A stretch of 64,000 bases of DNA from Colwellia sp. PAMC 20917 (GTDB lineage: Bacteria; Pseudomonadota; Gammaproteobacteria; Enterobacterales; Alteromonadaceae): the NCBI RefSeq assembly GCF_001767295.1, contig NZ_CP014944.1, positions 496,001 to 560,000 of the forward strand. Reading direction: 5' to 3'. Numbering within the stretch: position 1 is the stretch's first letter; each line of letters begins with the position of its first letter. Made by a program: the position numbers and the translations under genes. Below, piece after piece: positions 3,798 through 17,423 of this stretch. The notes beneath the pieces were generated by a model that was not told the DNA's origin, ran no database searches, and saw nothing but the letters and a program-made list of their open reading frames with translations.

Positions 3798-4721
3798 TTA
3801 AGCACTTTTTTGAAAAACACTAGAACGATTGCGCCCTTGGTCTTTTGCTTGATATAAAGCGATATCAGCTTGTTTTATTAATTCACTTGCATTGGCTACG
3901 TGATCGGCAGCATTTGTTGTTGCAATACCGATACTTACCGTCACATAAGGAAATATCGATGAATATTCGTGTTTTATTTTTTGACTTAATAGCGCTAAGC
4001 TTAATTCTTTTGCTTTAAATCTAGCGCCCTCGACCGGCGTAAAAGGCAGCACAACAATAAACTCCTCTCCCCCATAGCGAGCTAATGAGTCAGTGACTCG
4101 GTTAAGCGTTTCATTAAGTGTATTAGCAACCTGAACTAAACACTTATCACCTTGTGGGTGACCATAGTTATCGTTATAAGGCTTAAAAAAGTCAATATCT
4201 ATCATCAATATTGATAATTCCCCTTGTTGGCGCTCATTAATTTTCCAAGCACTAGCGAGGACTTCTTCTAACCCTCTTCGGTTAAGTATCTGCGTTAGCG
4301 GGTCAATACTACTGAGTATTTCTAGTTGTTTATTGGCGCGTTCAAGTGCCCCTTTCATTTTGGTAATACGTTCCATCGCTCTTAATTTTGCGCTTAAAAT
4401 AACTTGTTTTATCGGCTTTGTTAAGTAATCATCAGCACCCGCATCAATACCTTGAGTTAAATACTCTTCGCTGTCGTTGGAGCTAAGAAAGATAATAGGG
4501 AACCATTTGGGGTATTCTTTTCTCATCATTTTTGTTAGCGCAAAACCGTCAACCTCGGGCATTTCTATATCCATAAGCACTAAATCAATGTTTTCTTTCT
4601 TTAATGCCGCCATCGCCTGGACATGGCCATTAGCAACGACGGCAATATGGCCGCTGTCAATGATCATGGCACTAACAACTTCTCTGATAAACTTATTATC
4701 ATCCACAACTAGAATGTTCAC
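3798..4721 (-). CDS. Receiver-GGDEF diguanylate cyclase
   Basis: 307 aa, PleD/WspR-like layout with one receiver. Receiver at residues 1-120 (phospho-Asp D51, Lys in TKPIK), a helical linker, then a GGDEF domain at about 135-300. The active-site motif GGEEF is intact at 217-221 and an RVTD inhibitory I-site lies at 208-211, exactly five residues before it. The protein is therefore predicted to make c-di-GMP from GTP under phosphorylation control and to be product-inhibited. GTG start preceded by AAGGT. It lies inside the chemosensory operon, which suggests that CheA output or the adjoining hybrid kinase controls c-di-GMP level. Activity is inferred from motifs. Confidence 0.88.
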   Translation of the reverse strand: MNILVVDDNKFIREVVSAMIIDSGHIAVVANGHVQAMAALKKENIDLVLMDIEMPEVDGFALTKMMRKEYPKWFPIIFLSSNDSEEYLTQGIDAGADDYLTKPIKQVILSAKLRAMERITKMKGALERANKQLEILSSIDPLTQILNRRGLEEVLASAWKINERQQGELSILMIDIDFFKPYNDNYGHPQGDKCLVQVANTLNETLNRVTDSLARYGGEEFIVVLPFTPVEGARFKAKELSLALLSQKIKHEYSSIFPYVTVSIGIATTNAADHVANASELIKQADIALYQAKDQGRNRSSVFQKSA

Positions 4722-4764: not shown

Positions 4765-6492
4765 CTACGATGCCCAAACATAAGATGCTTCGACCACACT
4801 ACCATTATCTTGGAAGTCTAAGCTGTCACACAGCTGCTCAACTAACTCAATACCACGACCGCTAAGCTCGAGTTTATTGGCTGGCTTGTTCACTCGTTGC
4901 TCATAGTATTTTTTTATATCAAATCCTTGACCACTGTCTTGTATTTTAATCATAATTCGTCCGCCATTTGGAAAGGGGTAATGGCATATTTGTAATTCAA
5001 TAAAGCCATGCGCTAAATTTTTCAAACGCAATTCTCGCTCTTTGTAATATTGAGAGAAACCATCTGCACTGGCTTTTAAATTGGAGCTCAAACCTAAGAC
5101 ACCATGGTCAAGTGAATTAACAAATAACTCAGTGAGTATGCTGTATAAACTTTGCCAATGCTCTGCATGACCTTCTATTTCATTTATTTGACTCATAGCC
5201 ATAGGAATTGGGTTTATAGAGGCTAAGCGCTTACCACTTAAGGTAAGTTGCCAATGCCATGCTGGCTCTGTTGCCAAATAGATATCGTCAAGTTGCTTAG
5301 CTGAAATATTGGTAATACCATGACTGGCAACCAGCACGTGTTCCCAACCTCCGCAAGGAATGTCAATCAATGAAATATCATCTTCTTGTGGCATAGTTTG
5401 GCAAAAGTCATTAACCGCATCAAGCACACACTCACTAACCTTATGCGTGATGACCCCCTGTTTTGCCGCCTGTTCGAATCGGTCAAAATCAAACATTTCC
5501 CCGTGTTCATTTCTCGCCTCAACAATACCATCGCTGATTAAGATCATCCGATCGGTTTCTTCAATACCAAATACGGTTAATTTACTCTCAGGTAAAAGCT
5601 TTGGAAGCACACCTATCGGGGGGTGACTTGACGATATTTGATGTTTTATTTCACCTTGTTCAGAAAACAAGTAAGCATCGGGTAAGCCCGCATTAAAAAT
5701 ATACACAGATTTATCATGGCTAGAGATACTGGCAAACCCAGCCGCGAGAAATAAATCTGCAGGCAGTAAATCATAAAGTTGATGGTTAATTTGATTAATA
5801 ATTTCAAATAACAAAAAACCTTTTTTGGTCATCGCTCTAAAGGTTTCCGCTAAGGGAATAGCACCAATAGATGAACGCAGTCCATGGCCAGTAAAATCTC
5901 CCAACATAACATTAACGTCGCCATTAGGAGATAGAGCGGTCAGTTGTATATCACCACTAAATAACGCAGCGGGTTTTTTAATAATGCCAATGCGGTCAAG
6001 CGAGAAGTTTCTTGCCTCAATAACGCCTGACATTAACTGTTCAGCAAGCTCGGCATCTTTTTGTTGTTCTTGTTGTAAAATCTTAACTTGTGCGTATAAA
6101 TCACTGATTCGTTGGATTGACTTTATTTTAGCTTTAAAAACTTCGGGTGAAAATGGCCTGACTAAGATACCGTCACCGCCAGCATCAACACACTCAATAA
6201 AAGCTTTATCTGTATCCATGCTAGTAATAAAAATCAGTGGGCACAAGCTATTATCTTGCGATAAACTTTTAATTTTTCTTGCAGCTTCATAGCCGTTCAT
6301 AATGGGCATATTAATGTCCATTAACACTAAGTCAGGCTTGTACTTAACATACATAGCCACACCACGAGCACCATCATTAGCTGTAAAAACACGATAACCT
6401 TGCTCTTTTAATAAGACACTTAAGACTTTGCATTGCATTGCAGAGTCGTCAACAACTAAAGCTAATTTAACATCATTTTTTTCATCTAACAC
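4765..6492 (-). CDS. Receiver-PP2C phosphatase-HATPase (RsbU/CrsR-like)
   Basis: 575 aa with three modules: receiver (1-125, phospho-Asp D59), SpoIIE/RsbU-type PP2C Ser/Thr phosphatase (about 165-390; metal-binding motifs GDFTGHG, ISDGIVEA and EDDISL) and a C-terminal RsbW-like HATPase (about 440-575; LFVNSLDHG, QDSGQGFD, GRGIELVEQ). Proteins of this build (CrsR in Shewanella, HsbR in Pseudomonas) act as both phosphatase and kinase for a STAS anti-sigma antagonist. The next gene upstream is such a STAS protein, ending 9 nt before this start, which supports the same partnership. GTG start. The receiver would let CheA or the hybrid kinase set the phosphatase state; that link is inferred. Confidence 0.88.
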   Translation of the reverse strand: MLDEKNDVKLALVVDDSAMQCKVLSVLLKEQGYRVFTANDGARGVAMYVKYKPDLVLMDINMPIMNGYEAARKIKSLSQDNSLCPLIFITSMDTDKAFIECVDAGGDGILVRPFSPEVFKAKIKSIQRISDLYAQVKILQQEQQKDAELAEQLMSGVIEARNFSLDRIGIIKKPAALFSGDIQLTALSPNGDVNVMLGDFTGHGLRSSIGAIPLAETFRAMTKKGFLLFEIINQINHQLYDLLPADLFLAAGFASISSHDKSVYIFNAGLPDAYLFSEQGEIKHQISSSHPPIGVLPKLLPESKLTVFGIEETDRMILISDGIVEARNEHGEMFDFDRFEQAAKQGVITHKVSECVLDAVNDFCQTMPQEDDISLIDIPCGGWEHVLVASHGITNISAKQLDDIYLATEPAWHWQLTLSGKRLASINPIPMAMSQINEIEGHAEHWQSLYSILTELFVNSLDHGVLGLSSNLKASADGFSQYYKERELRLKNLAHGFIELQICHYPFPNGGRIMIKIQDSGQGFDIKKYYEQRVNKPANKLELSGRGIELVEQLCDSLDFQDNGSVVEASYVWAS

Positions 6493-6501
6493 GGCTATAA
6501 C

Positions 6502-6810
6502 CTATAATTCTATGGTGAGCAAACGGTGAAATTGCGCAATTTCTAAAATTTTATTCACTGACTCGCTTGGTTTACTAATCACGACTTTTCCTGAATAGTT
6601 TTCAGCATGATCTTTAAGTAATAAAATCATCCCTAAAGCAGAGCTATCCATATAAGTCGTTTTTGATAAACAGATAGTAAACATCGAGTTTTTTTCTTTA
6701 CAGTTAACATAGGCATCTCGAAAGTGTTGATGCAGTGAGAAATCAAACCGACCTTCAATACTAATTTCTATATTTTTTTTATCTTCTGATACTTGCTTTA
6801 TAACATTCAT
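6502..6810 (-). CDS. STAS-domain anti-anti-sigma-like protein
   Basis: 102 aa, the size of a single SpoIIAA/RsbV-type STAS domain. The phosphorylation loop reads YMDSSALG, with candidate phospho-serines S56/S57 after the conserved Asp. I chose the ATG at 6810, which has AGGA upstream; an open frame extends 56 codons further into the preceding receptor gene, but that part is not STAS-like. It lies directly before the receiver-PP2C-HATPase gene, and the pair should form a partner-switching module in which the STAS protein is phosphorylated by the HATPase and dephosphorylated by the PP2C domain. The downstream target (sigma or anti-sigma factor, cyclase) is not evident in the window. Confidence 0.85.
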   Translation of the reverse strand: MNVIKQVSEDKKNIEISIEGRFDFSLHQHFRDAYVNCKEKNSMFTICLSKTTYMDSSALGMILLLKDHAENYSGKVVISKPSESVNKILEIAQFHRLLTIEL

Positions 6811-6832
6811 AGTCGTTCCTAATAATTTAGAA

Positions 6833-8032
6833 TTAAAACAACTCAACATCACCTTCATCCATAGATGACTGAGATACGCTGCGCTGCTCATTTTGGTGTT
6901 GAGATTGTTCGATGAGCGATTGACATTGATGCTGTAATTTTTGTAGTGCTTGTGGAGTATTACTATTATTGATTTCAAATTCCATTAAAACTTGATTGAG
7001 AGCCGTAATAGTTTCAGTATTATTTTTAAGTGTTGCAAGGGCTTGACACGTTAAGTCTTCAAATTGTAGCGAGCGAATGCCTGTAGCGACTGTTTCTGCA
7101 ATTTTTGGTGATAACCCAGCAAGTTCTTCAACAATGGCATTGGTTTGTGAAGTAGACTCACCCACATGCTCAACCATAAGACTGACTCGACTTTTAGCCT
7201 CAAGTGTTGTGGTCATATCAGCTGAAGCCATAGCTTGAACTGAGTTTCTTAGCTTTTCAATGATAATTTGTGCTAATGATATTTCTTCACGAATATTATC
7301 ATTGAGGTCGGTAGAATTAACCGATAACGCCCTGACTTCATTAGCCACTACAGCAAAACCTCTACCGGCATCTCCGGCTCTCGCTGCTTCTATAGCGGCA
7401 TTAAGGGCTAATAAATTAGTTTGGCTCGCTAAACTTTCTACTTGTCCCAATAAGCTAAAAATACCGTCGAGCTGTTTGCTCATTTCATCGCTAAATGACA
7501 CGGCAGCTAAACTTTGCTTGCTGGTGGTCATAATCACCTGTACAAAATCATCTAAAGTCTCACTGGAGTCGTGAACAAAAGACTCTATCGTGGTGCCGTT
7601 TTCATCAACAGCACCTCGATGATTACCAATAGCGGCATTAAGCATGACTTGTTGTTCATCTGTTAAGCTTTTTAAAAATTTAAAACTATCTGCAATTCCA
7701 GTTGTAGCCTCTTGAATTAAGATACTGGCCCGGTCAACTTCGGTATCAACGATGGCTATTTGCTGGCTAAGTAAGCTAACAATTTTTGTCAGGGTTATTT
7801 TTATTTCTTTGTTATTGTTATTTTCATTAAGCTCATTGCGCCCATCAGCATCACTTGCACTTGATAATGTCAGCAATGCATGATGATTTTTATATAAGAT
7901 AATCAAGACAAACGACAGTAATAATGTCAGCGCAATTGATAAGTATCTCAGTTGAAAAAATAAAAGGTCCATCAGTATTACGCCAACAATCACCAGTCCA
8001 GTTTTTAATAACAGCATGGCTTTATTTTTCAT
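6833..8032 (-). CDS. Small membrane methyl-accepting chemotaxis protein, ELF tail
   Basis: About 399 aa from the ATG at 8032 (AGAGGTG upstream), which overlaps the 3' end of cheB. Two hydrophobic segments (residues 7-25 and 29-47) are separated by only a few residues, so there is no periplasmic sensor domain. The rest is a cytoplasmic signalling coiled coil whose tip contains [19 protein letters not shown], the conserved CheA/CheW contact. No HAMP or PAS domain is visible. The protein ends DEGDVELF; the last seven residues are identical to the CheD C-terminus. A receptor without its own sensor may read membrane state or relay signals from partners such as the neighbouring soluble receptor. 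A comparable receptor sits in the Vibrio cholerae cluster III (recalled, not checked). Confidence 0.85.
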
Positions 8033-9107
8033 AAAACACCTCTTTTTTACTCTTTCGATCCACTGCAGCATGAGCTAAAATTTCCTTAGGTATAGTAACT
8101 AATGAGCACTCTTTTACCTGAGCATTTAATGCATGAGCACTGCCTGGCATTCCCCAAATTAAACTACTTGCCTTATCTTGGATAATAGTCATAGCGCCTG
8201 CATTTTTTAAATTTAATAAACCTTTGGCTCCATCTTGTCCCATGCCGGTTAATAATACCGCTTGAACATTATTAGCAAGTGGCAGTAAGGAATTAAACAA
8301 AACGTCAACGGCAGGCTTATGACGGTTAACATCAGATGAGTCTTCTAAAATACAAAAAAGTGCTCCGCCTTTACTTTCTACTTTTAGATGAAGATTACCT
8401 GGCGCAATATAAACATTACCCGCTTTAATCTTTTGGCCATGCCTTGCTTCTTGCACATCAACAGCACAATTTTCGTTCATCCGTTGTGCATATCTCGCAC
8501 TGAATATTTTTGGAATATGTAAGGTGATAACCACAGCGGGAGAATTACTTGGCAAAGCGGTAATAATTGCTTTAATTGCTTCGGTGCCTCCTGTTGAAGC
8601 GCCAATAGCCACTAAATGATTCGAGCGCTGGCAACCTTTAAAAAGCAGTAGACCAGCCACTAGAGGTTTTGATAGCGCGCTGTTAAGTCGAAAGTTTTTA
8701 TTATCAACCGTTGCGGCAAATTTTATTTTTCTCAATAAAGTCTCTTGAAAAGTAGACTTATTAGCAATCAAGGCTTCAAAACTAGGTTTTGCAATAAAAT
8801 CAACAGCCCCTATTTCTAAAGCTTGTAGGGTTATATCAGCCCCTTTGGTCGTTAATGTTGATAACATCACGACCGGCATAGGGTGCAGTCGCATTAAGTT
8901 TTTCAAAAAGGTAATACCATCCATCTTTGGCATTTCAATATCTAAAGTCAGTACGTCAGGATTTAGCTTTTTGATTTGCTCTCGCGCGATCATTGGGTCT
9001 TTAGCTTCGCCAACCACTTCAATTTCAGGGTCATCTTTTAAAACCTCATTAATAACCGCTCGGATAACCGAAGAATCATCAATAATTAATACTTTAATTG
9101 GTTTCAT
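8022..9107 (-). CDS. cheB: Chemotaxis glutamate methylesterase/deamidase CheB
   Basis: 361 aa, usual CheB length. Receiver at residues 1-125 (phospho-Asp D56) and C-terminal methylesterase with the catalytic triad Ser in GASTGG (S171), His in TLHIPK (H197) and Asp in GMGQDGA (D292). It removes methyl groups from receptor glutamates and is activated by phosphorylation from CheA. ATG start with AGGATG. It follows cheD, separated by about 107 bp that holds a relic of the cheD 3' end, and overlaps the small receptor gene downstream. Confidence 0.96.
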
Positions 9108-9214: not shown

Positions 9215-9880
9215 CTAAAATAATTCTACATCACCTTCTACAGGTGTTTGGTCTATACGGTTTCTGTAAGCACTTTCACGACGCGCAATAGTATCATTAT
9301 GTAAATTATCAATCGTTTTAACAAAAGCTCGGCCACTTAGCGGTTCAAACAAAACCTTGCGAGGGAAAAAAGAACCTAAATCTGAACCTTCAACGGGTAT
9401 CCCTTCATCAGCAAGATATTTCATCACAAAGCTAATATTTTTTTCACCAATATCAGACATGTGTTTTAAGACTTTACCGCCACCAAATACCTTAGCGCGT
9501 AAATTTACTTTTCGACCACCGTTTTTCAAGATCATATTAATGAGGTGTTCCATTGCAAAGTTGCCATAACGCGTCGCATCAGATGCCATACCGCGTTGTC
9601 CCCAATCAACTTCATGGGCTTCTTTATCGGTTAGCGGCAGCATAAAATGATTCATGCCACCTATACCGCTATGTTCATCCCAAATGCAGGCTGAAATACA
9701 AGACCCTAACGTGGTCGCTATAGCAACATTATCTCGAGTCATATAAAATTCACCAGGAAGAATTTTAGCGATAACTTGTTGTCTTTTTGCATCCCAATAA
9801 TGATTTATATGGGCAAACTCTGCTAAACATTGTTTTAAGCATTGCTTAACATAAATATTGTCTTGTCGATTTAAAACCAT
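9215..9880 (-). CDS. cheD: Chemoreceptor glutamine deamidase CheD
   Basis: 221 aa from the ATG at 9880. A longer TTG-started form (9949) would overlap cheR by about 40 bp and lacks a better ribosome site. The CheD active-site residues are present: Cys in TLGSCISAC and His in GGMNHFMLP, and the conserved FGGGKV region follows. CheD deamidates receptor glutamines to glutamate and in some species interacts with CheC. The C-terminus extends about 20 residues past the typical core and ends VEGDVELF, matching the small receptor two genes downstream. It lies between cheR and cheB, as in F7-type clusters. Confidence 0.93.
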   Translation of the reverse strand: MVLNRQDNIYVKQCLKQCLAEFAHINHYWDAKRQQVIAKILPGEFYMTRDNVAIATTLGSCISACIWDEHSGIGGMNHFMLPLTDKEAHEVDWGQRGMASDATRYGNFAMEHLINMILKNGGRKVNLRAKVFGGGKVLKHMSDIGEKNISFVMKYLADEGIPVEGSDLGSFFPRKVLFEPLSGRAFVKTIDNLHNDTIARRESAYRNRIDQTPVEGDVELF

Positions 9881-9908
9881 AATTATTTGTTCACTTATTA
9901 TAGAACGG

Positions 9909-10754
9909 CTAAAATGCTTTTCTAAAAATGGTGCGTCCGACACTTTCAAAATGTTGTTGATATTGACCTAAATTTTCACTATGCCCTAAAATAAGTAAAC
10001 CGCCCGGTGCTAACATTTCATAATAACGGGCAAATAATTCTTGCTGCGTTTTTTTATCAAAATATATAATCACATTTCGACAAAAAATGATGTCAAATGG
10101 CCCTTTCATTGGCCATTCATGTAATAGATTCAATTTTTTAAAGGTAATAAGTGCTTGTAACTGTTTACCTACCTTTACTTTACTTTCGTTAATGCCAATG
10201 CCTTTGGTAAAATATTTTTCCTTAAACTTCCTTGGAACATCTTCTATGCGGCGTTCATCATAAGTACCTTCTTTAGCAACAGCTAACACATTACTGTCAA
10301 TATCTGTTGCTAATATTTTTACATCCCATTGACTTAACTGGCTTTTTATTGCTTCGAGCACCGTAATAGCAATACTGTAAGGTTCTTCTCCAGTGGAGCT
10401 TGCAGACGACCAAATTCTCAGGCGTTTATCATGCGATAGGCGATTACCGAGTAATTTAGGTAGTTCATCTTGCGTCATATAATCAAAATGATGCTGCTCA
10501 CGAAAAAAACTGGTTAAATTCGTGGTAATCGCATTGATAAAGTAATCTTGCTCTTTTTCTGTATCTGCCTTTAATAAGTTGCAATAAGCCGTAAAGGAGG
10601 GAAGTTTACGCTCACGAATAATACGAGTAAGACGACGGTACACCATCTCTTTTTTACTGGCATTGAGTACAATACCAGCTGTGTCATAAACAAATTGACA
10701 AAGATAATTAAAGTTATCGCTACTTAATTGAAACGCTTTATCACGCTCTGTCAT
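9909..10754 (-). CDS. cheR: Chemotaxis protein methyltransferase CheR
   Basis: 281 aa. N-terminal CheR helical domain and C-terminal SAM-dependent methyltransferase with WSSASSTGEEPYS (SAM-binding) and DIIFCRNVIIYFD. It methylates receptor glutamates. The upstream receptor ends in a WEEF-type tail, the kind of C-terminal peptide that tethers CheR in the P. aeruginosa Aer2/CheR2 pair, so the two are probably matched. ATG start, 12 nt after the receptor stop. Confidence 0.96.
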   Translation of the reverse strand: MTERDKAFQLSSDNFNYLCQFVYDTAGIVLNASKKEMVYRRLTRIIRERKLPSFTAYCNLLKADTEKEQDYFINAITTNLTSFFREQHHFDYMTQDELPKLLGNRLSHDKRLRIWSSASSTGEEPYSIAITVLEAIKSQLSQWDVKILATDIDSNVLAVAKEGTYDERRIEDVPRKFKEKYFTKGIGINESKVKVGKQLQALITFKKLNLLHEWPMKGPFDIIFCRNVIIYFDKKTQQELFARYYEMLAPGGLLILGHSENLGQYQQHFESVGRTIFRKAF

Positions 10755-10766
10755 TAATCGTATGCC

Positions 10767-13490
10767 CTAGAACTCTTCCCACTCTTGATCCGATTCAGTT
10801 TTGGTTCGAGTCACCTTTGCCCTGGGCGCTGGTCTGGTTGGTTGTCTGCTCGCGGCTCTTGTTGGTTGTCTACTTGCCGGCTGTCTACTTGCCGGCTGTC
10901 TAGTTGCCGGCTGTCTAGTTGCCGGCTGTCTAGTTGCCGGTCTTCTACTTGTTTGTTGTGAGCGACGAACAGGGGTTTGAATCTCTTGTTCATCATCTTC
11001 GCCATTATTAAAGAAAGCAACTTGATCAAGAAGTGCTTGTGACTGTTCTTCCATTGACTTACTCGATGCTGCTGCTTCTTCAACTAATGCGGCATTTTGT
11101 TGAGTCATTTCATCCATTTGGCTAACGGCGGCACTGACTTCGCCAATACCTGCCGATTGCTCTTTACCCGCACTGTCAATATCGCTGATCATTTTACTGA
11201 CTTCTTCAATAGCATTAACCAGTTCAGTAAAAGTTTGACCGGTTTCATCAACTAACTTAGTCCCTTGACCTACCGCTTCAACACTGTCGTTTATTAAACC
11301 TTTAATCTCTTTAGCGGCACCGGCTGAACGTTGCGCTAAGTTGCGAACTTCTGCAGCAACCACCGCAAAACCACGACCTTGTTCACCCGCTCTTGCCGCT
11401 TCAACTGCAGCATTTAAAGCCAACAAGTTGGTTTGAAAGGCAATTTCATCAATAACACTGATGATGTCAGCAATTTTTTTACTCGACTTATTAATATCAC
11501 TCATCGCCGTGATAGCATTTTTTACTACTGCGCCACCATTACTTGCTTTGTCCATAACCGATGCTGACAACTTACTCGCTTCAGATGTGTTTTCTGCATT
11601 CTGCTGCACGGTACTGGTTAGTTCTTCCATAGCAGAAGCTGTTTCTTCAAGGCTAGAGGCTTGAGATTCTGTTCTGTGGCTAAGTTCGTTGTTTCCTTCA
11701 GCAAGTTCACGAGCTGAATCAAAAACATTGGTTGACGCGCTGCGAATATCACCAACCATATTACTCAACACATCAATAAATTCATTAATAGAAGTGCCAA
11801 TAATATTAAATTCACCTACCAACTCTGTTTCAATATATTGCGTTAAGTCACCGTCAGATAAGGTCATTAACGTTTCTTTAATTTGAGCAATAGCTTGCTT
11901 TCTTCCGGTGATATCTGCGGCATATTTAACGACTTTCATGGTCTTGCCGTTTAAATCTAAAATAGGGTTGTAAGACGCTTGTATCCAAACTTCTTTCCCG
12001 CCTTTGCCTATGCGTTTATATTCGCCACTGTCGAATTCACCGCGATTAAGTTTTTGCCAAAATTGTTGATATTCAATAGTCGACTTATGAGCAGGATCAA
12101 CAAATAAGCTATGGTGTTGCCCCTGTATTTCACTAAGTGTATAACCTAACGCCGATAAAAAATTGTCATTGGCGGTAATAATAGTACCGTCCATATTAAA
12201 TTCAATCACCGCTTGTGATTTGCTTATCGCGGCAATTTGTCCAGAATAATCAGCACTTATTAATTTTTGTTTGGTGACGTCTGAGGCGAATTTTACCACT
12301 TTAAAAGGTTTATCATTTAAGTCTAATATAGGATTGTAAGAAGCTTGTATCCAAACTTCTTTACCACCTTTACCGATGCGTTTATATTCTTTTGAGTCGT
12401 ATTCACCGCGATTTAAGCTTTCCCAAAAGAGTTTATATTCAACACTATTTTTGAGTTCTGGCTCAATAAACATGCTGTGGTGCTGGCCTTTTACTTCTTC
12501 TAGGGTATAACCGAGCGTTGATAAAAAGTTTTCATTCGCGGTGATAATAGTGCCGTCCATATTAAATTCAATCACAGCTTGCGCTTTACTTATCGCTTCA
12601 ATCTGACCTAAAAAGTTTACGTGGGCTAATTTTTGTTCAGTAATGTCCGTTGCAAATTTCATCACTTTATAAGGAACCCCCTCTGTATTAAGGATAGGGT
12701 TATAAGACGCCTGTATCCAAACTTCTCTGCCGCCTTTAGCAATGCGTTTATAAGTTTTTGATTCAAACTCACCACGATTCAAGCTTTCCCAAAAATTTTG
12801 ATATTCTTCACTTATTTTAAAACTATGTTCGACAAACATACTGTGATGCTTACCTTGCACTTCTTCTAAGCTATAACCTAAGGTCGATAAGAAGTTTTCA
12901 TTGGCGGTAATAATAGTACCGTCCATATTAAACTCAATTAGCGCTTGAACTTTATTCAGCGCTTCTATCTGAGCTAACATGTCTGAAAATTGCAATTCTT
13001 TAGCCTGCTCAACTGAAATTTCGGTCTCTTTATCCATGGTAGTATTCTTCCCTATCGATTGAATGTTATCTTTTATTTTTATAGGATTAAGCACTAACTC
13101 AATAACAATGCTTCCTACTAAACGTTTAATTGTCGAGATCCAAGCTCTTTTGAGCGCAATTTTTAACTCTTTATCTAGTATCATTGTTAATGCTAGCAAC
13201 AAGGCATTTTCAACATCTGCTTGATAATTTTTAACATCATTAGTAGTGACTGATGTATTAACTTTTTCTTCAGTCAGTTCAATTGGCTGTAATAAATTTA
13301 TTTCTTGGCTTAATAAACAGATAAAGTCTTTATTAGCCCGGATTTTATCTTGCTTATCATTTTTTAATAATGTCGCTAATTCCGGTCTTAATACAAATAA
13401 TTGTTGATAAAACAAATCGCCAACATCGGGTGAAAGTATCAGTACTTTTTGCCAACTTTGCTGAACTAAATTAATCTGTTTAGCTGTCAT
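10767..13490 (-). CDS. Soluble chemoreceptor: globin-like + 3 PAS + signalling domain
   Basis: 907 aa with no membrane segment. Residues 1-135 read as a globin fold: an A-helix with a conserved Trp (QSWQKVL), a B/C region [16 protein letters not shown] and a final helix [10 protein letters not shown]. There is no histidine before about residue 210, so no proximal heme ligand. Three near-identical PAS domains follow (NMDG motif at 188, 310 and 432; period 122 residues), each with [20 protein letters not shown]. A HAMP-like stretch and an MCP coiled coil with the tip [18 protein letters not shown] come next. The tail has tandem RQPA[TS] units and ends QEWEEF, a CheR/CheB-tether type pentapeptide. 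It corresponds in position to Aer2 (P. aeruginosa) and VCA1092 (V. cholerae). A gas or redox cue via the PAS domains is inferred. Confidence 0.9.
10855..10950 (-). repeat. 15-bp tandem repeats encoding RQPA[TS]
   Basis: Within the receptor 3' end the 15-bp unit GTTGCCGGCTGTCTA (plus strand) is repeated about five times with one or two changes, with looser copies on both sides. In frame it gives [10 protein letters not shown], a basic, proline-rich, disordered linker between the signalling coiled coil and the terminal WEEF peptide. Linkers before such pentapeptides set the reach of the tethered methyltransferase. Units of this kind change number by slippage. Confidence 0.9.
11900..13000 (-). 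repeat. 366-bp in-frame triplication of a PAS-coding unit
   Basis: The codons for the NMDG motif recur at exactly 366-bp steps (CCGTCCAT starting at 12187, 12553 and 12919). Each unit codes for one whole PAS domain plus its linker. The three proteins are very similar in the N-cap, core and [16 protein letters not shown] strand and diverge mainly in the F-helix region. This indicates duplication of a whole domain and subsequent drift. Confidence 0.92.
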
Positions 13491-13557: not shown

Positions 13558-14040
13558 TCATTGCAGTGAACTGTTTAGGTGGTTTTCTACGTCGTAGAGT
13601 TCGTCCTGATCTAATAAACTATGACTATCCAGTAAAATAATAAGCCTGTCGTCAATTGACACTAAGCCCTGTAAAAAACAACGATCTATTTTATTACCAA
13701 AAGTAGGAGGGATCCGTATTGATTTTTTGTCAAACTTGTAAACTTCTGATACGGCGTCGACCACAACACCGACTACCATGTTTTTTTGACTATTTGGCTT
13801 TCGTAAAATAATGATCACTGTTTGTTCATTATATGCGAGCGGTTGTTGACCAAAACGCTGGCGTAAATCTATGATAGGTACAATAATGCCACGTAAGTTA
13901 ATGACCCCTTTGATATAATTTGGCTTGTTCGGTAACTCGGTAACTGAACTCCACACGCGTATTTCTTGTACGCATAAAATATCAACACCATACTCTTCGC
14001 CATTTAACATAAAGGTGAGATATTCTTGCTCTTGTTCCAT
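13558..14040 (-). CDS. cheW: Chemotaxis adaptor CheW (second copy)
   Basis: 160 aa, a single CheW SH3-like domain: EYLTFMLNGEEYGVDILCVQEIR at the N-terminus, IKGVINLRGIIVPIIDLRQRFG in the centre and VVGVVVDAVSEV near the end. It couples receptors to CheA. ATG start with GGAAG. It follows the other cheW by 15 bp and is clearly related to it, so the pair probably arose by duplication. Two adaptors in one operon are also found in V. cholerae cluster III. Confidence 0.95.
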   Translation of the reverse strand: MEQEQEYLTFMLNGEEYGVDILCVQEIRVWSSVTELPNKPNYIKGVINLRGIIVPIIDLRQRFGQQPLAYNEQTVIIILRKPNSQKNMVVGVVVDAVSEVYKFDKKSIRIPPTFGNKIDRCFLQGLVSIDDRLIILLDSHSLLDQDELYDVENHLNSSLQ

Positions 14041-14055
14041 GGTATCTTCCTTTAT

Positions 14056-14580
14056 TTATATTAACTGATGTTTTTCAATTTCTTGTAAAACGTTAACATT
14101 GAGTAAAGTGACAACATTTTCGCCAACATTTACTAAACCTTGTAAGTAATTTTGTGGTACACAGCCACCAAATGCTGGCGCAGGTTTTATATCGCTTGCT
14201 TCTACATTGAGCACATCTGATACGGCGTCAACCACAAAACCTATAGTGCGGGTTTTATCTTCGGTTTCCACAGTTAAAACAATCACGACCGTTGTTTCAC
14301 AATAAATAGCACTACTGATATTAAATTTCATTCGTAGATCAACTATAGGTACAATAATGCCGCGCATATTTATAACCCCTTTAATATAACAAGGTGAATT
14401 AGGGATGCGGGTTGGGTTTTCCCAACTACGTATTTCTTCGACACATAAAATATCAACAGCGTATTGTTCATCTGCTAATAAAAAAGTGAGGTACTGGTCA
14501 CCACTGGTAATAAAGTCGATGCCCTCTAAGGAATGCTCTCCTTCAACTGGCACCTCTGCTGCTAACATTTGAATATCCAT
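14056..14580 (-). CDS. cheW: Chemotaxis adaptor CheW (first copy)
   Basis: 174 aa, a CheW domain with an N-terminal extension of about 25 residues. Hallmarks are QYLTFLLADEQYAVDILCVEEIR, IKGVINMRGIIVPIVDLRMKF and GFVVDAVSDV. The ATG overlaps the cheA stop (TAATG), so translation is coupled. It binds CheA domain P5 and the receptor tip. Confidence 0.95.
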   Translation of the reverse strand: MDIQMLAAEVPVEGEHSLEGIDFITSGDQYLTFLLADEQYAVDILCVEEIRSWENPTRIPNSPCYIKGVINMRGIIVPIVDLRMKFNISSAIYCETTVVIVLTVETEDKTRTIGFVVDAVSDVLNVEASDIKPAPAFGGCVPQNYLQGLVNVGENVVTLLNVNVLQEIEKHQLI

Positions 14581-16706
14581 TAAGTGTTCACTCCTGTCGA
14601 TATTGACTGGGTAATTTGAGATTGAACACTTGACTGGTGTTGTTGATTTATTTGTGCTTTTGTTAACGCCATTTCAATAATACCAGGTACATCAAGAATC
14701 ATAGCCACAGAACCATCACCCAGGATAGTGGCTCCTGAGACACCTTGAACTTGTTGATAATTATCATTTAAGCTCTTAATGACGACTTGCTGCTGGGCAA
14801 GTAAATCATCAACCATTAAACCAATTTTTTGTCCGTCTGCTTCAACCACAACCAACAAACAACTTTCGATATGTTCAAATTCACAAGGGATATTAAATAA
14901 CTGATAAATAGGGATAACCGGTACATTATCTTCCCTGAGCCGATAAAGCAGCATGTCACCTGAAACACGATTAATAAGCTCTTTTTGTGGCTGAAGAGAT
15001 TCAACAATAGTAATTAAAGGAATAATATAAACTTCCTTACCCACCCGAACTAACTGACCATCAAGTATTGCTAAAGTAAGAGGTAGGTTTATCCGAAAGG
15101 TACTCCCCTTGCCTTGTTCAGACTCGACTTGTATTCGTCCACCTAATGATTGAATATTCTTTTTTACCACATCCATACCGACGCCACGGCCAGAAATATC
15201 ACTGACCTCTTTAGCTGTAGAAAATCCAGGTTCAAAAAGTAAATCAAAAACTTGGCTATCAGATAAAGTGGTTTTTTCATCAACGAGGCCTTTTTCAAGT
15301 GCCTTATTAAAAACAGCTTGGCGGTCAATGCCGCCACCATCATCACTAATTTCAATACAAATACTGCCACCTTGATGATAGGCATCAAGCACAATAGAAC
15401 CCTTTTCAGGCTTACCATTAGCGAGTCTAACGTGTGCAGACTCAATACCATGATCAACGGCATTACGCACTAAATGTACCAGCGGATCGCCAATTTGTTC
15501 CATAACAGTTTTATCGAGTTCTGTTTGCTCACCTTTAAGAATAAGCTCAATTTCTTTTCCTGTTTTTTTAGACAGGTCATGTACTAATCTTGGAAAACGA
15601 TTAAAAACAAAACTAATCGGTAGCATGCGAATTCGCATAACACTTTCTTGTAATTCTTTAGTATTTTGTAGTAACTGCTCCAACCCCGCATTTAGGCGCT
15701 CAACTTTTGACAAGTCAAAATCATTGCCTAACTCAGACAGCATAGATTGAGTAATAACTAATTCACCAACCAAGTTAATTAAACTGTCAACTTTATCAAC
15801 GCCGACTCGAATAGAACCGAGATCATTTTTAGACTTACCTGCTGGTTTATCTGGGATGTTTTTTGGCGTAGGCTCAGGAAAGCTAGATTCGATTGGCGTT
15901 GTTATATTAGTCGCTTCATCTTGGCTTGACTGATCAATAGTATTGACTTCAATCCCCTCTTTAACTTCAACTTCAACAGCTAAGAGGTGTTCTTCTTTGG
16001 TAATAATTAATTCACATTCATCTTCAACCCATTCAAAGACTTCTTTTATTTCCGCTTCACTGGCATTTGAGCACAATGTTAACTGCCAACTTAAATAGAG
16101 TTCTTCGGCATCAATATCATTTAATGCTGGTAGGTCTTTAGCATCAGCTTCTAAAGAAATTTCTCCTAAATCAGCCAAGGCATTAAAGAGGAGTAGAGGG
16201 TCATTACCCGTTTGCACTAAATGATGCTCTGGTATAAATTTTATCTGCCACCTTGTTATATCATTGTTATTGTCCGTAGTGTCATCAACGTTTATGAGTA
16301 GTGCTTCAGTATTCACATTGCCACTTGAGGCTAATGTTTCCTCTAAGCGCGTTGAGTTTTCAGCTATTTTTTCACTATCACACTCTTGTTCATCTCTTAT
16401 TGCCTCAATTAACAAGCGCATACAGTCAACAGACTCTAATAATAATTCAACGTCATCTTGTTCAATATTACGCCTGCCATCACGCATTTCATCAAGAAGT
16501 GTTTCAACCAAATGAGTGAACTCTGTGACATGATTAAAGCCAAAAGTACCAGCTCCTCCTTTAATGGAATGGGCAGCACGAAATATTGAATTAATCGTTT
16601 CATCATCACCTTGCTCTAAATTTAGCAAGCTCGACTCCATTAATTCGAGACCTTCAAAACTTTCTTCTAAAAAGCTTGGAATAAACTGTGTGAGATCTAC
16701 GCTCAT
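14580..16706 (-). CDS. cheA: Chemotaxis histidine kinase CheA
   Basis: 708 aa, full-length CheA. P1/Hpt domain with phospho-His H46 in AAHSIKGGAGTFG; a P2-like response-regulator-binding region around 150-240; P3 dimerisation with DSLINLVGELVITQSML; P4 ATPase with HLVRNAVDHGIE, DDGGGID and GRGVGMDVV; and a C-terminal P5 CheW-like domain beginning near LDGQLVRVG. It phosphorylates the CheY encoded immediately upstream and probably CheB, and could also serve the receivers of the phosphatase and cyclase genes in the operon; the last point is inference. Confidence 0.97.
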   Translation of the reverse strand: MSVDLTQFIPSFLEESFEGLELMESSLLNLEQGDDETINSIFRAAHSIKGGAGTFGFNHVTEFTHLVETLLDEMRDGRRNIEQDDVELLLESVDCMRLLIEAIRDEQECDSEKIAENSTRLEETLASSGNVNTEALLINVDDTTDNNNDITRWQIKFIPEHHLVQTGNDPLLLFNALADLGEISLEADAKDLPALNDIDAEELYLSWQLTLCSNASEAEIKEVFEWVEDECELIITKEEHLLAVEVEVKEGIEVNTIDQSSQDEATNITTPIESSFPEPTPKNIPDKPAGKSKNDLGSIRVGVDKVDSLINLVGELVITQSMLSELGNDFDLSKVERLNAGLEQLLQNTKELQESVMRIRMLPISFVFNRFPRLVHDLSKKTGKEIELILKGEQTELDKTVMEQIGDPLVHLVRNAVDHGIESAHVRLANGKPEKGSIVLDAYHQGGSICIEISDDGGGIDRQAVFNKALEKGLVDEKTTLSDSQVFDLLFEPGFSTAKEVSDISGRGVGMDVVKKNIQSLGGRIQVESEQGKGSTFRINLPLTLAILDGQLVRVGKEVYIIPLITIVESLQPQKELINRVSGDMLLYRLREDNVPVIPIYQLFNIPCEFEHIESCLLVVVEADGQKIGLMVDDLLAQQQVVIKSLNDNYQQVQGVSGATILGDGSVAMILDVPGIIEMALTKAQINQQHQSSVQSQITQSISTGVNT

Positions 16707-16711
16707 AATAG

Positions 16712-17074
16712 CTACCTAACAACCCGCTTAATGGTTGCTAATAATTTTTCAGGGTTAAAAGGTTTAACTAACCATCCGGTAGCACCAGCTGCTTTGCCAC
16801 GCATTTTCATATCACCAGAACTTTCGGTCGTTAGCATTAAAATAGGAGTAAACTTAAAAGGGGGTAACTTACGTAACTCTTCGCATAAAGTAATACCGTC
16901 CATAATCGGCATATTTACGTCTGAGATCACTAAGTCAAAAGCCCCACCCTGAGCTTTACTCAAACCTTCTTGTCCGTCTCTTGCTTCAACGGTTTCATAA
17001 CCGGCACTTTTTAATGTAAAACTAACCATATCGCGAATAGAGTTAGAATCATCAACAACCAAAATTTTGGTCAT
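16712..17074 (-). CDS. cheY: Chemotaxis response regulator CheY
   Basis: 120 aa single receiver domain. Acidic pocket D8/D9, phospho-Asp D52 in ISDVNMP, Thr in LMLTTES and Lys in VKPF. No output domain. It lies 5 nt upstream of cheA. Because the system is F7-like, the target need not be the flagellar motor; the cluster holds no flagellar gene. Confidence 0.95.
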   Translation of the reverse strand: MTKILVVDDSNSIRDMVSFTLKSAGYETVEARDGQEGLSKAQGGAFDLVISDVNMPIMDGITLCEELRKLPPFKFTPILMLTTESSGDMKMRGKAAGATGWLVKPFNPEKLLATIKRVVR

Positions 17075-17147: not shown

Positions 17148-17423
17148 CTAAGCATTTAGATATTGATTTAAAATGGCTTCATTAAGCCCTAATTGCTTAA
17201 CGCTTTCTTGAATAACACGGGAGTTGGAATTCCAATTGAGTACTTTATTTTGTGCCGCGATGTAGGTGACCGCCGCTAATAATAATTGCACACCAACGGT
17301 ATCTATATGGGTAACAGCACTGTCATCAAATGTTATAACATCATTTTTAGCAATTTCATCGAGTAGTTGATTTTTACAGTCATCCACTTGAGCAATGGTT
17401 AACAGAGCCGGTAATATGAACAT
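17148..17423 (-). CDS. STAS-domain protein heading the chemosensory operon
   Basis: 91 aa, compact STAS fold. The loop that carries the phospho-Ser in RsbV proteins reads HIDTVGVQLL, with Thr42 in place of Ser. It is the first gene of the operon, about 70 bp before cheY. It is similar in size to, but distinct from, the STAS protein next to the PP2C phosphatase. It may be a second substrate of that enzyme or a structural part of the array; the sequence does not decide. Confidence 0.82.
   Translation of the reverse strand: MFILPALLTIAQVDDCKNQLLDEIAKNDVITFDDSAVTHIDTVGVQLLLAAVTYIAAQNKVLNWNSNSRVIQESVKQLGLNEAILNQYLNA

Follow-up and report, generated by a model that had tools for sequence, protein, structure and literature searches.

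A globin domain without a heme pocket at the N-terminus of an F7-type chemoreceptor with flavin-type PAS domains in Colwellia sp. PAMC 20917

The stretch of 64,000 nucleotides analysed here (hereafter the window) stems from Colwellia sp. PAMC 20917 (assembly GCF_001767295.1, contig NZ_CP014944.1, positions 496,001 to 560,000) and encodes, in an open reading frame on the minus strand at 10767-13490, a chemoreceptor of 907 residues that belongs to a chemosensory cluster of the F7 type. Judged from sequence comparisons, its N-terminal domain (residues 1-130; 13101..13490, minus strand) is a true globin homologue, with significant similarity to solved globins over the whole domain, and it has lost the residues that make up the heme pocket in the globins of its closest counterparts. 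This change in heme use is not confined to the globin, as the PAS domains that follow are also of another type than those of the heme-type relatives. The receptor thus has the appearance of a former oxygen sensor converted to another use, and we favour as the probable explanation that the heme-free globin serves as a packing or dimerising cap rather than as a new sensor.

When searched as a single sequence against the PDB with phmmer, the receptor matched the globin of HGbRL from Methylacidiphilum (3wfw) at E 1.1e-5 over residues 1-125, and the same structure was the top match (E 3.5e-13) of a profile built from seven related receptor N-termini. Next, among the best 60 of the 78 matches to this profile, came two chains named 'hemoglobin-like flavoprotein' (4e-10), a single-domain haemoglobin, plant haemoglobins, flavohaemoproteins, and neuroglobins, and a profile-profile comparison with 11 heme-type receptor globins gave a probability of 99.8 (E 1.5e-29). 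An original prediction, made from the letters of the DNA, had recognised a globin-like region in the N-terminal 135 residues, and these matches bear it out, with its boundaries (13086-13490) right to within a few residues; the alignable N-terminal region extends to residue 145 (13056). Family hidden Markov models gave a divided answer on this point, as the PDB profile finds globins but a Pfam search of window residues 1-150 returned no family and hence no match to Pfam Globin (PF00042). The latter was matched by two of the seven profile rows (best 2.9e-5) and by all 11 heme-type relatives (best 4.6e-20). Protoglobin was matched by five of those 11 heme-type globins (best E 0.001), in one of the seven profile rows at a non-significant E of 0.14, and not at all in the window domain, for which no RsbR model turned up in Pfam either, up to an E of 1. 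The lineage is therefore that of single-domain globins and flavohaemoglobins and not that of HemAT or RsbR, so that the comparison with the non-heme globin of RsbR drawn in the original prediction survives only as an analogy, and we take this likeness to be convergent. Since the AlphaFold2 prediction for the globin failed (mean pLDDT of 42.9 from a two-row alignment of the window and L032, a model that was not used), the assignment of the fold rests on homology rather than on a model.

Relatives of the receptor were collected from genomes of the same family, 196 of which were searched with the globin domain (matches in 55), while a CheA search at E 1e-150 gave matches in 77. From 80 neighbourhoods, in each of which the receptor downstream of CheA was annotated (individual loci are designated L032 and so on, genomes G000 and so on), 44 clusters were counted, namely those whose CheA is at least 56% identical to that of the window, the window included. 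The counts leave out 31 receptors of other F7 systems (CheA identity of 43-52%, no globin found) as well as the CheA-bearing contigs of G076 and G048 that end inside CheA; five loci (L059, L061, L062, L063, and L065) were dropped as single-domain globins of 147-152 residues with no adjoining CheA match, and L082 has no receptor. Two receptors that end before the MCP part (L054 and L066) still stand among the 44 on their N-terminal parts, and that of L060 was read as two pieces flanking an assembly gap. The receptors fall into five classes: 25 of the 44 combine a heme-type globin with PAS domains of the Aer2 type, seven have a decayed globin and Aer2-type PAS (four of them with His in the F8 register), another seven share the PAS type of the window and have a globin that lacks the pocket signature, three have the window's PAS type and are globin-free (L074, L076, and L077), and two have a single Aer2-type PAS domain and likewise no globin. 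The decayed globins next to heme-type PAS are those of L056, L066, L068, L070, L072, L078, and L094, and their substitutions differ between genera. In an order-wide profile search of 394 genomes, with matches in 113 among the best 10 candidates per genome, frames of more than 700 residues occurred only in the window's family; elsewhere the longest had 465 residues, and the matches were single-domain globins or proteins of flavohaemoglobin size.

For the heme pocket, positions were read on a profile of 22 of the 25 heme-type rows, with the helix letters B10, E7, E10, and F8 following HGbRL and HGbI (from the part of PMC4476040 that was available) and all other positions numbered for this analysis. 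The classes had first been set by eye, from the columns F8 and H90 and from overall similarity, and were then checked on this profile. All 25 heme-type rows have Phe at CD1, Gln at E7, Lys at E10, His at F8, and Tyr at F11, of which F8 forms part of the class definition and the other four do not. In the seven globins that precede flavin-type PAS domains, no row retains E7, E10, or F11, a single one (L034) retains CD1, and two (L047 and L064) retain F8, which makes the latter two intermediate in sequence; a general statement that all flavin-PAS receptors are without the proximal His was accordingly dropped. By contrast, core residues are kept in all seven, namely Trp at A12, Phe at B9, Tyr at B10, Leu at B13, and the Ala-Trp pair of the H helix. 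The globins of the window, L033, L034, L052, and L053 have no proximal His, and that of the window contains no His at all, with the residues at E10, E7, CD1, and F11 all replaced and a Val in the F8 register. The first histidine of the 907-residue receptor is residue 215, in agreement with the earlier observations that the first 200 residues are free of it and that the normal proximal ligand is missing. Close homologues with an aligned heme-ligating His, which had been named as grounds for giving up a histidine-free globin, do exist, as the pocket signature is complete in 25 of the 44 receptors that occupy this position; they point, however, to a loss of heme from a heme-binding ancestor and are not read here as a refutation.

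The PAS domains tell a parallel story. Those of a heme-type relative, L049, match Aer2 of Vibrio (6ceq, 3.3e-19) and of Pseudomonas (4hi4, 1.5e-11) through the motif FHKNPxHQR, which we take to contain the heme-binding His of Aer2-type PAS. The three domains of the window receptor (residues 173-300, 295-422, and 417-544; 12591..12974, 12225..12608, and 11859..12242, all minus strand) are instead of the Aer/MmoS/NifL or flavin type. In the PDB search, the first PAS domain matched Aer (8dik, 2e-10) and MmoS (3ewk, 2.7e-9), both of which are redox sensors with flavin adenine dinucleotide (FAD) according to the accessible text of PMC10468136. In a PDB comparison of its model (mean pLDDT of 84.5), MmoS took the first rank, Aer the second, and NifL the seventh, but TodS, LOV domains, and a heme PAS (rank 9) are also close, so that the fold alone leaves the cofactor unfixed. 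The same source, as far as available, names a Trp on the F-alpha helix together with a conserved His and Asn as requirements of the FAD type (PMC10468136). In the model, Trp62 lies in the helix 56-66 ahead of the strand 71-78 and is aligned with the Trp of Aer (8DIK) and MmoS (3EWK); across 65 domains of the window's PAS type, the F-alpha Trp is invariant (65/65), as is AN.NF, and HH is present in at least 85%. The domains therefore agree with the FAD type at the Trp and in having conserved His and Asn motifs, which are not assigned one to one to the His and Asn of PMC10468136. PAS domains of the receptors BdlA and McpS, with a comparable MCP architecture, are likewise predicted FAD binders (PMC8694187, in the portion available). 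Among the 42 receptors read, none contains both PAS types, and a full globin pocket occurs in none of ten flavin-PAS receptors versus 25 of 34 heme-PAS receptors (Fisher p 3.7e-5, in a test that ignores kinship). The number of PAS domains per receptor ranges from one to seven across the same 42, the maximum being seven tandem heme-type domains in a single 1438-residue receptor of the window's genus (L055).

Trees suggest how this combination came about. On a tree of six concatenated Che proteins (44 rows; 43 in the version for the pair test), the window, L033, and L034 lie within their genus, followed stepwise by the heme-type L054, L055, and L060 (99, 100, and 98%), and L064 adjoins the heme-type L042 of its own genus (100%); a single clade of the flavin-type host clusters was rejected (p 5.5e-110), where the group of ten had been named before any tree but the Che tree had already been seen. 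The HAMP-MCP tree, on the other hand, unites all ten flavin-PAS receptors in one clade (100/100) and rejects the placement of the window group with its genus relative L055 (p 2e-7) and of L064 with L042 (p 2e-8), and in the PAS tree the domains group by position, the last PAS of all ten at 99%. As the receptors form one HAMP-MCP clade and their host clusters do not, the variant must have moved between clusters, and these trees give a single origin, with exchange between clusters, to at least the part of the receptor that comprises the PAS domains and HAMP. A repeated vertical origin of flavin-type PAS together with heme loss was considered and dropped, since trees and tests point to one moved variant. 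The window's genome is moreover the only one of the 77 with two CheA matches (among the best five candidates per genome): a second F7 cluster (L049; G000:C1, about 4655000-4674000) carries a heme-type receptor with globin and Aer2-like part. Its Che proteins group with those of another genus (L050 and L057; 100%), so that this second cluster was likely acquired. Across six genomes of the genus, a heme-less receptor occurs in three (the window's, G069, and G130) and a heme-type receptor in four, with both in the window's genome.

Whether the emptied globin is still constrained may be judged from the rates at which it evolves. By the NG86 method, omega is 0.29 (0.17-0.54) for the window and L033, 0.46 (0.28-0.73) for the window and L034, 0.34 (0.21-0.55) for L033 and L034, and 0.17 (0.06-0.30) for L052 and L053, whereas four heme-type pairs gave 0.02-0.12 with upper bounds up to 0.22. 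Among decayed globins next to heme-type PAS, the pair L068/L070 gave 0.11 and L072/L094, with few changes, 0.56. YN00 rates, obtained for part of the pairs, lie above NG86 for some of them (e.g., 0.26 vs 0.13 for the heme-type pair L040/L045), and the intervals for sub-domains are too wide to place selection on individual helices. On these rates, the globin of the window group evolves faster than heme-type globins yet under purifying selection, which is relaxed rather than absent.

Several observations weigh against the interpretation of a single exchanged variant whose globin was de-hemed along with the switch in PAS type and retained as a cap. With regard to selection, relaxation in L052/L053 is not clear, as YN00 gives an omega of 0.56 for this pair as opposed to the 0.17 of NG86, and its NG86 interval overlaps that of the heme-type pair L050/L057 (0.05-0.22). 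L047 and L064 retain His in the F8 register next to flavin-type PAS, so that a strict absence of the proximal His does not hold for the entire variant. Conversely, the globin is decayed in seven receptors with heme-type PAS and gone from two more, which means that the PAS change is not the sole route to such decay or loss. Once kinship is considered, the association of pocket and PAS type reduces to five independent pairs on the cluster tree, with an average of 3.9 for and 0 against, too few for a sign test to attain 0.05 (median p 0.125). In the globin tree, the seven flavin-PAS globins come together weakly (81/31, with long branches), and the signalling tip alone, in a tree that omits L050 and L057 for want of the anchor motif, leaves the ten as one clade neither supported nor rejected (p 0.13) and rejects the window group with L055 (p 0.011). 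Lastly, three of the ten flavin-PAS receptors are globin-free, and any role of the cap is hence dispensable.

This last point leads to the reading that the globin is a pure relic, unused, drifting, and near loss, which we consider rather unlikely. It would be in line with the absence of the globin from L074, L076, and L077 of the same variant, with an omega in the window group several-fold above that of heme-type globins, and with the 57% identity of the globin between the window and L034 as compared to 94% for HAMP-MCP. However, the NG86 upper bounds are below 1 in all four flavin-PAS pairs (0.54, 0.73, 0.55, and 0.30), the frames of the seven sampled globins are all open, and the core residues of the A, B, and H helices are kept. 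Purifying selection would also be expected if the emptied pocket had become a sensor of another ligand, such as a small hydrophobic or alcohol-like compound, and the heme-independent sensing of ethanol by HemAT provides a precedent (PMC7542364, in the part available); this appears improbable all the same, because no new conserved set of residues has emerged and the five rows without proximal His differ from one another at E7, E10, F8, and F11. Continued heme binding by the domain, by way of some other ligand or of a partner subunit, is very improbable, as the window domain has neither a His nor any of the original residues at E10, E7, CD1, and F11, despite the Tyr retained at B10 in all seven globins, the F8-register His of L047 and L064, and the example of HGbRL, which is site-swapped between subunits and can bind heme with a distal Lys, its proximal ligand still being a His (PMC4476040, in part).

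A feature at the border between globin and PAS1 bears on how a cap could be gained and lost. An in-frame ATG (Met152; 13035..13037, minus strand) is a candidate internal start, from the sequence and from a comparison of 39 receptors, and would give a globin-free form of 756 residues; upstream of it lies the Shine-Dalgarno-like motif GGGAAG (13047..13052, minus strand; -5.9 kcal/mol). All 39 globin receptors have an in-frame ATG in this linker, compared with 61% expected from Met frequency. Median complementarity to the ribosome is -5.6 kcal/mol at the best site per linker, -1.8 at 904 other internal Mets, and -4.8 at the 39 first ATGs. As choosing the best of several Mets favours the hypothesis of an internal start, a single rule was applied, which takes the first Met within the 30 residues that precede PAS1. 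Under this rule, which was fixed after the pattern had already been seen, complementarity upstream exceeds that at the remaining Mets within these genes (paired p 1.2e-6), with a median at the 8th percentile among the codon positions of the respective linker and a median rank better than 0.5 in 18 of 20 genus-and-class groups. The motif is built with the rarer glycine codons GGA and GGG (15/23 vs 437/1921 elsewhere, p 2e-5). Values of -5 kcal/mol or better were reached by 20 of the 39; 13, including L049 (-2.1), are weaker than -3, and five have a rank of 0.38 or worse (L056, L042, L043, L045, and L069, the last being worst at 0.96). In the globin-free L074, the predicted start is the matching Met. 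Taken together, this suggests that the long receptor and the globin-free 756-residue form are both made, and an internal start would render the globin cap optional. The short form of CheA is a precedent for two products from one gene; a literature search for internal starts in chemoreceptors gave nothing relevant among the matches listed.

It is quite possible, if put forward tentatively, that in this family one gene provides two receptors. A globin would have been fused in frame onto an Aer2 receptor whose ribosome binding site was kept, capped and uncapped forms would mix in one F7 array, and the globin would act as an added oxygen cap whose tuning, loss of heme, or complete loss leaves the core receptor unchanged. 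The lineage of the window would have lost the heme of the cap and exchanged the heme PAS of the core for flavin PAS, which would have turned an oxygen array into a redox array, with the oxygen version kept in the second cluster. As regards the probable course of signalling, the ancestral receptor would have bound heme, and that of the window would no longer read gas by this means but rather the redox or energy state, via flavin in its PAS domains. The signal would travel through HAMP to the MCP tip and from there to CheA and CheY as well as to a CrsR-like partner switch. Apart from the lineages that have lost it, the globin would persist under weak selection as a folded, heme-free cap that serves in packing or dimerisation at the distal end of the receptor, and the internal start would probably yield a globin-free form in addition.

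Downstream of the PAS domains, the receptor comprises a HAMP domain (residues 536-576; 11763..11885), recognised by a partial match to Pfam HAMP_2 at 24.5 bits with a cut-off of 24.3, a Pfam MCP signalling domain (residues 641-796; 11103..11570), and the C-terminal pentapeptide EWEEF (10770..10784, read from the translation), all on the minus strand. WEEF is found at the C-terminus in 37 of 42 receptors, in the window after a repetitive RQPATRQPA-like tail, and resembles the CheR-tethering pentapeptide of known receptors. The most hydrophobic 19 residues of the window receptor average 1.49, which is too low for a membrane span, and the protein should thus be soluble. Two receptors at the same cluster position, the globin-free L073 and L075, contain a strongly hydrophobic stretch around residue 320 (19-residue means of 2.93 and 3.35) by which they look membrane-bound.

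The neighbouring genes, all on the minus strand and assigned by Pfam unless indicated otherwise, encode in order from 17423 to 4765 an RsbV-like STAS protein (anti-sigma antagonist, 17148..17423), the single receiver domain protein CheY (16712..17074), CheA with Hpt, H-kinase_dim, HATPase_c, and CheW domains (14580..16706), two CheW proteins (CheW 2 at 14056..14580 and CheW 1 at 13558..14040), the receptor, CheR (9909..10754), CheD (9215..9949), CheB (8022..9107), a second receptor that is McpA-like by position (6833..8071), a second STAS protein (6502..6978, domain search), and the RsbU-like protein, which joins receiver, SpoIIE phosphatase, and HATPase_c_2 domains and is CrsR-like in architecture (4765..6492). 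A receiver-GGDEF diguanylate cyclase was also found by domain searches (3798..4721, minus strand). Gene for gene, this is the 'stage 1 F7' order of STAS, cheY, cheA, two cheW, aer2-like, cheR, cheD, cheB, mcpA, STAS, and serine phosphatase given in the available text of PMC7184735, in whose main text the word 'globin' does not occur. The original prediction had likewise placed an F7-type receptor in a cluster with RsbU/RsbV-like proteins, and the gene order together with the STAS and CrsR-like proteins confirms it. In Shewanella, CrsR and CrsA control RpoS by partner switching (PMC9855816 and PMC6482189, both in part). The window cluster has the same architecture (as described in the accessible part of PMC6482189) of a receiver-PP2C phosphatase-GHKL kinase protein with a STAS partner, and by analogy may exert a CrsR-like control of RpoS.

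Among known systems, Aer2 (NF041847; Vibrio, Shewanella, and Pseudomonas) is similar in its F7 position and its soluble PAS-HAMP-MCP build, but the window receptor differs by flavin-type instead of heme-type PAS domains and by its N-terminal globin. Of the two receptors in this genome, L049 passes the Aer2 cut-off of 1200 bits (1386), while that of the window fails it with 395.9 bits (profile positions 459-780, the HAMP-MCP part only). HGbRL (3wfw), the closest solved globin among the matches listed, also has an N-terminal globin on a signalling protein; however, it binds heme, keeps the proximal His, and is fused to Roadblock/LC7 instead of PAS-MCP. In RsbR of the Bacillus subtilis stressosome, the globin is fused to STAS as a stressosome part, unlike the PAS-HAMP-MCP region that forms the C-terminal part here. 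HemAT shares the fusion of a globin to an MCP signalling domain but has a heme domain of the Protoglobin type (PMC6194562, in the part available), whereas the homology of the window domain is to Pfam Globin, with PAS repeats and HAMP in between. The combination of PAS, Bac_globin, and MCP has been recorded in seven proteins from 8,075 genomes, including Colwellia sp. MT41 and Glaciecola nitratireducens, and was read as a double oxygen sensor; the accessible text names no heme-less form, PAS switch, or second start (PMC6194562). No description of a globin-capped Aer2 or of its heme-less form was recognised in the literature among the matches listed (by titles and beginnings of abstracts).

Summed up, a near-stepwise series is preserved at one gene position, which runs from an intact heme globin with heme PAS through an eroded pocket with the His left to the loss of the His and finally of the domain. 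As heme-type and heme-less receptors coexist in one genome, it becomes directly testable how an F7 array is affected when heme is lost, and the candidate second start would explain how an array receptor could gain a whole sensor domain and later lose it.

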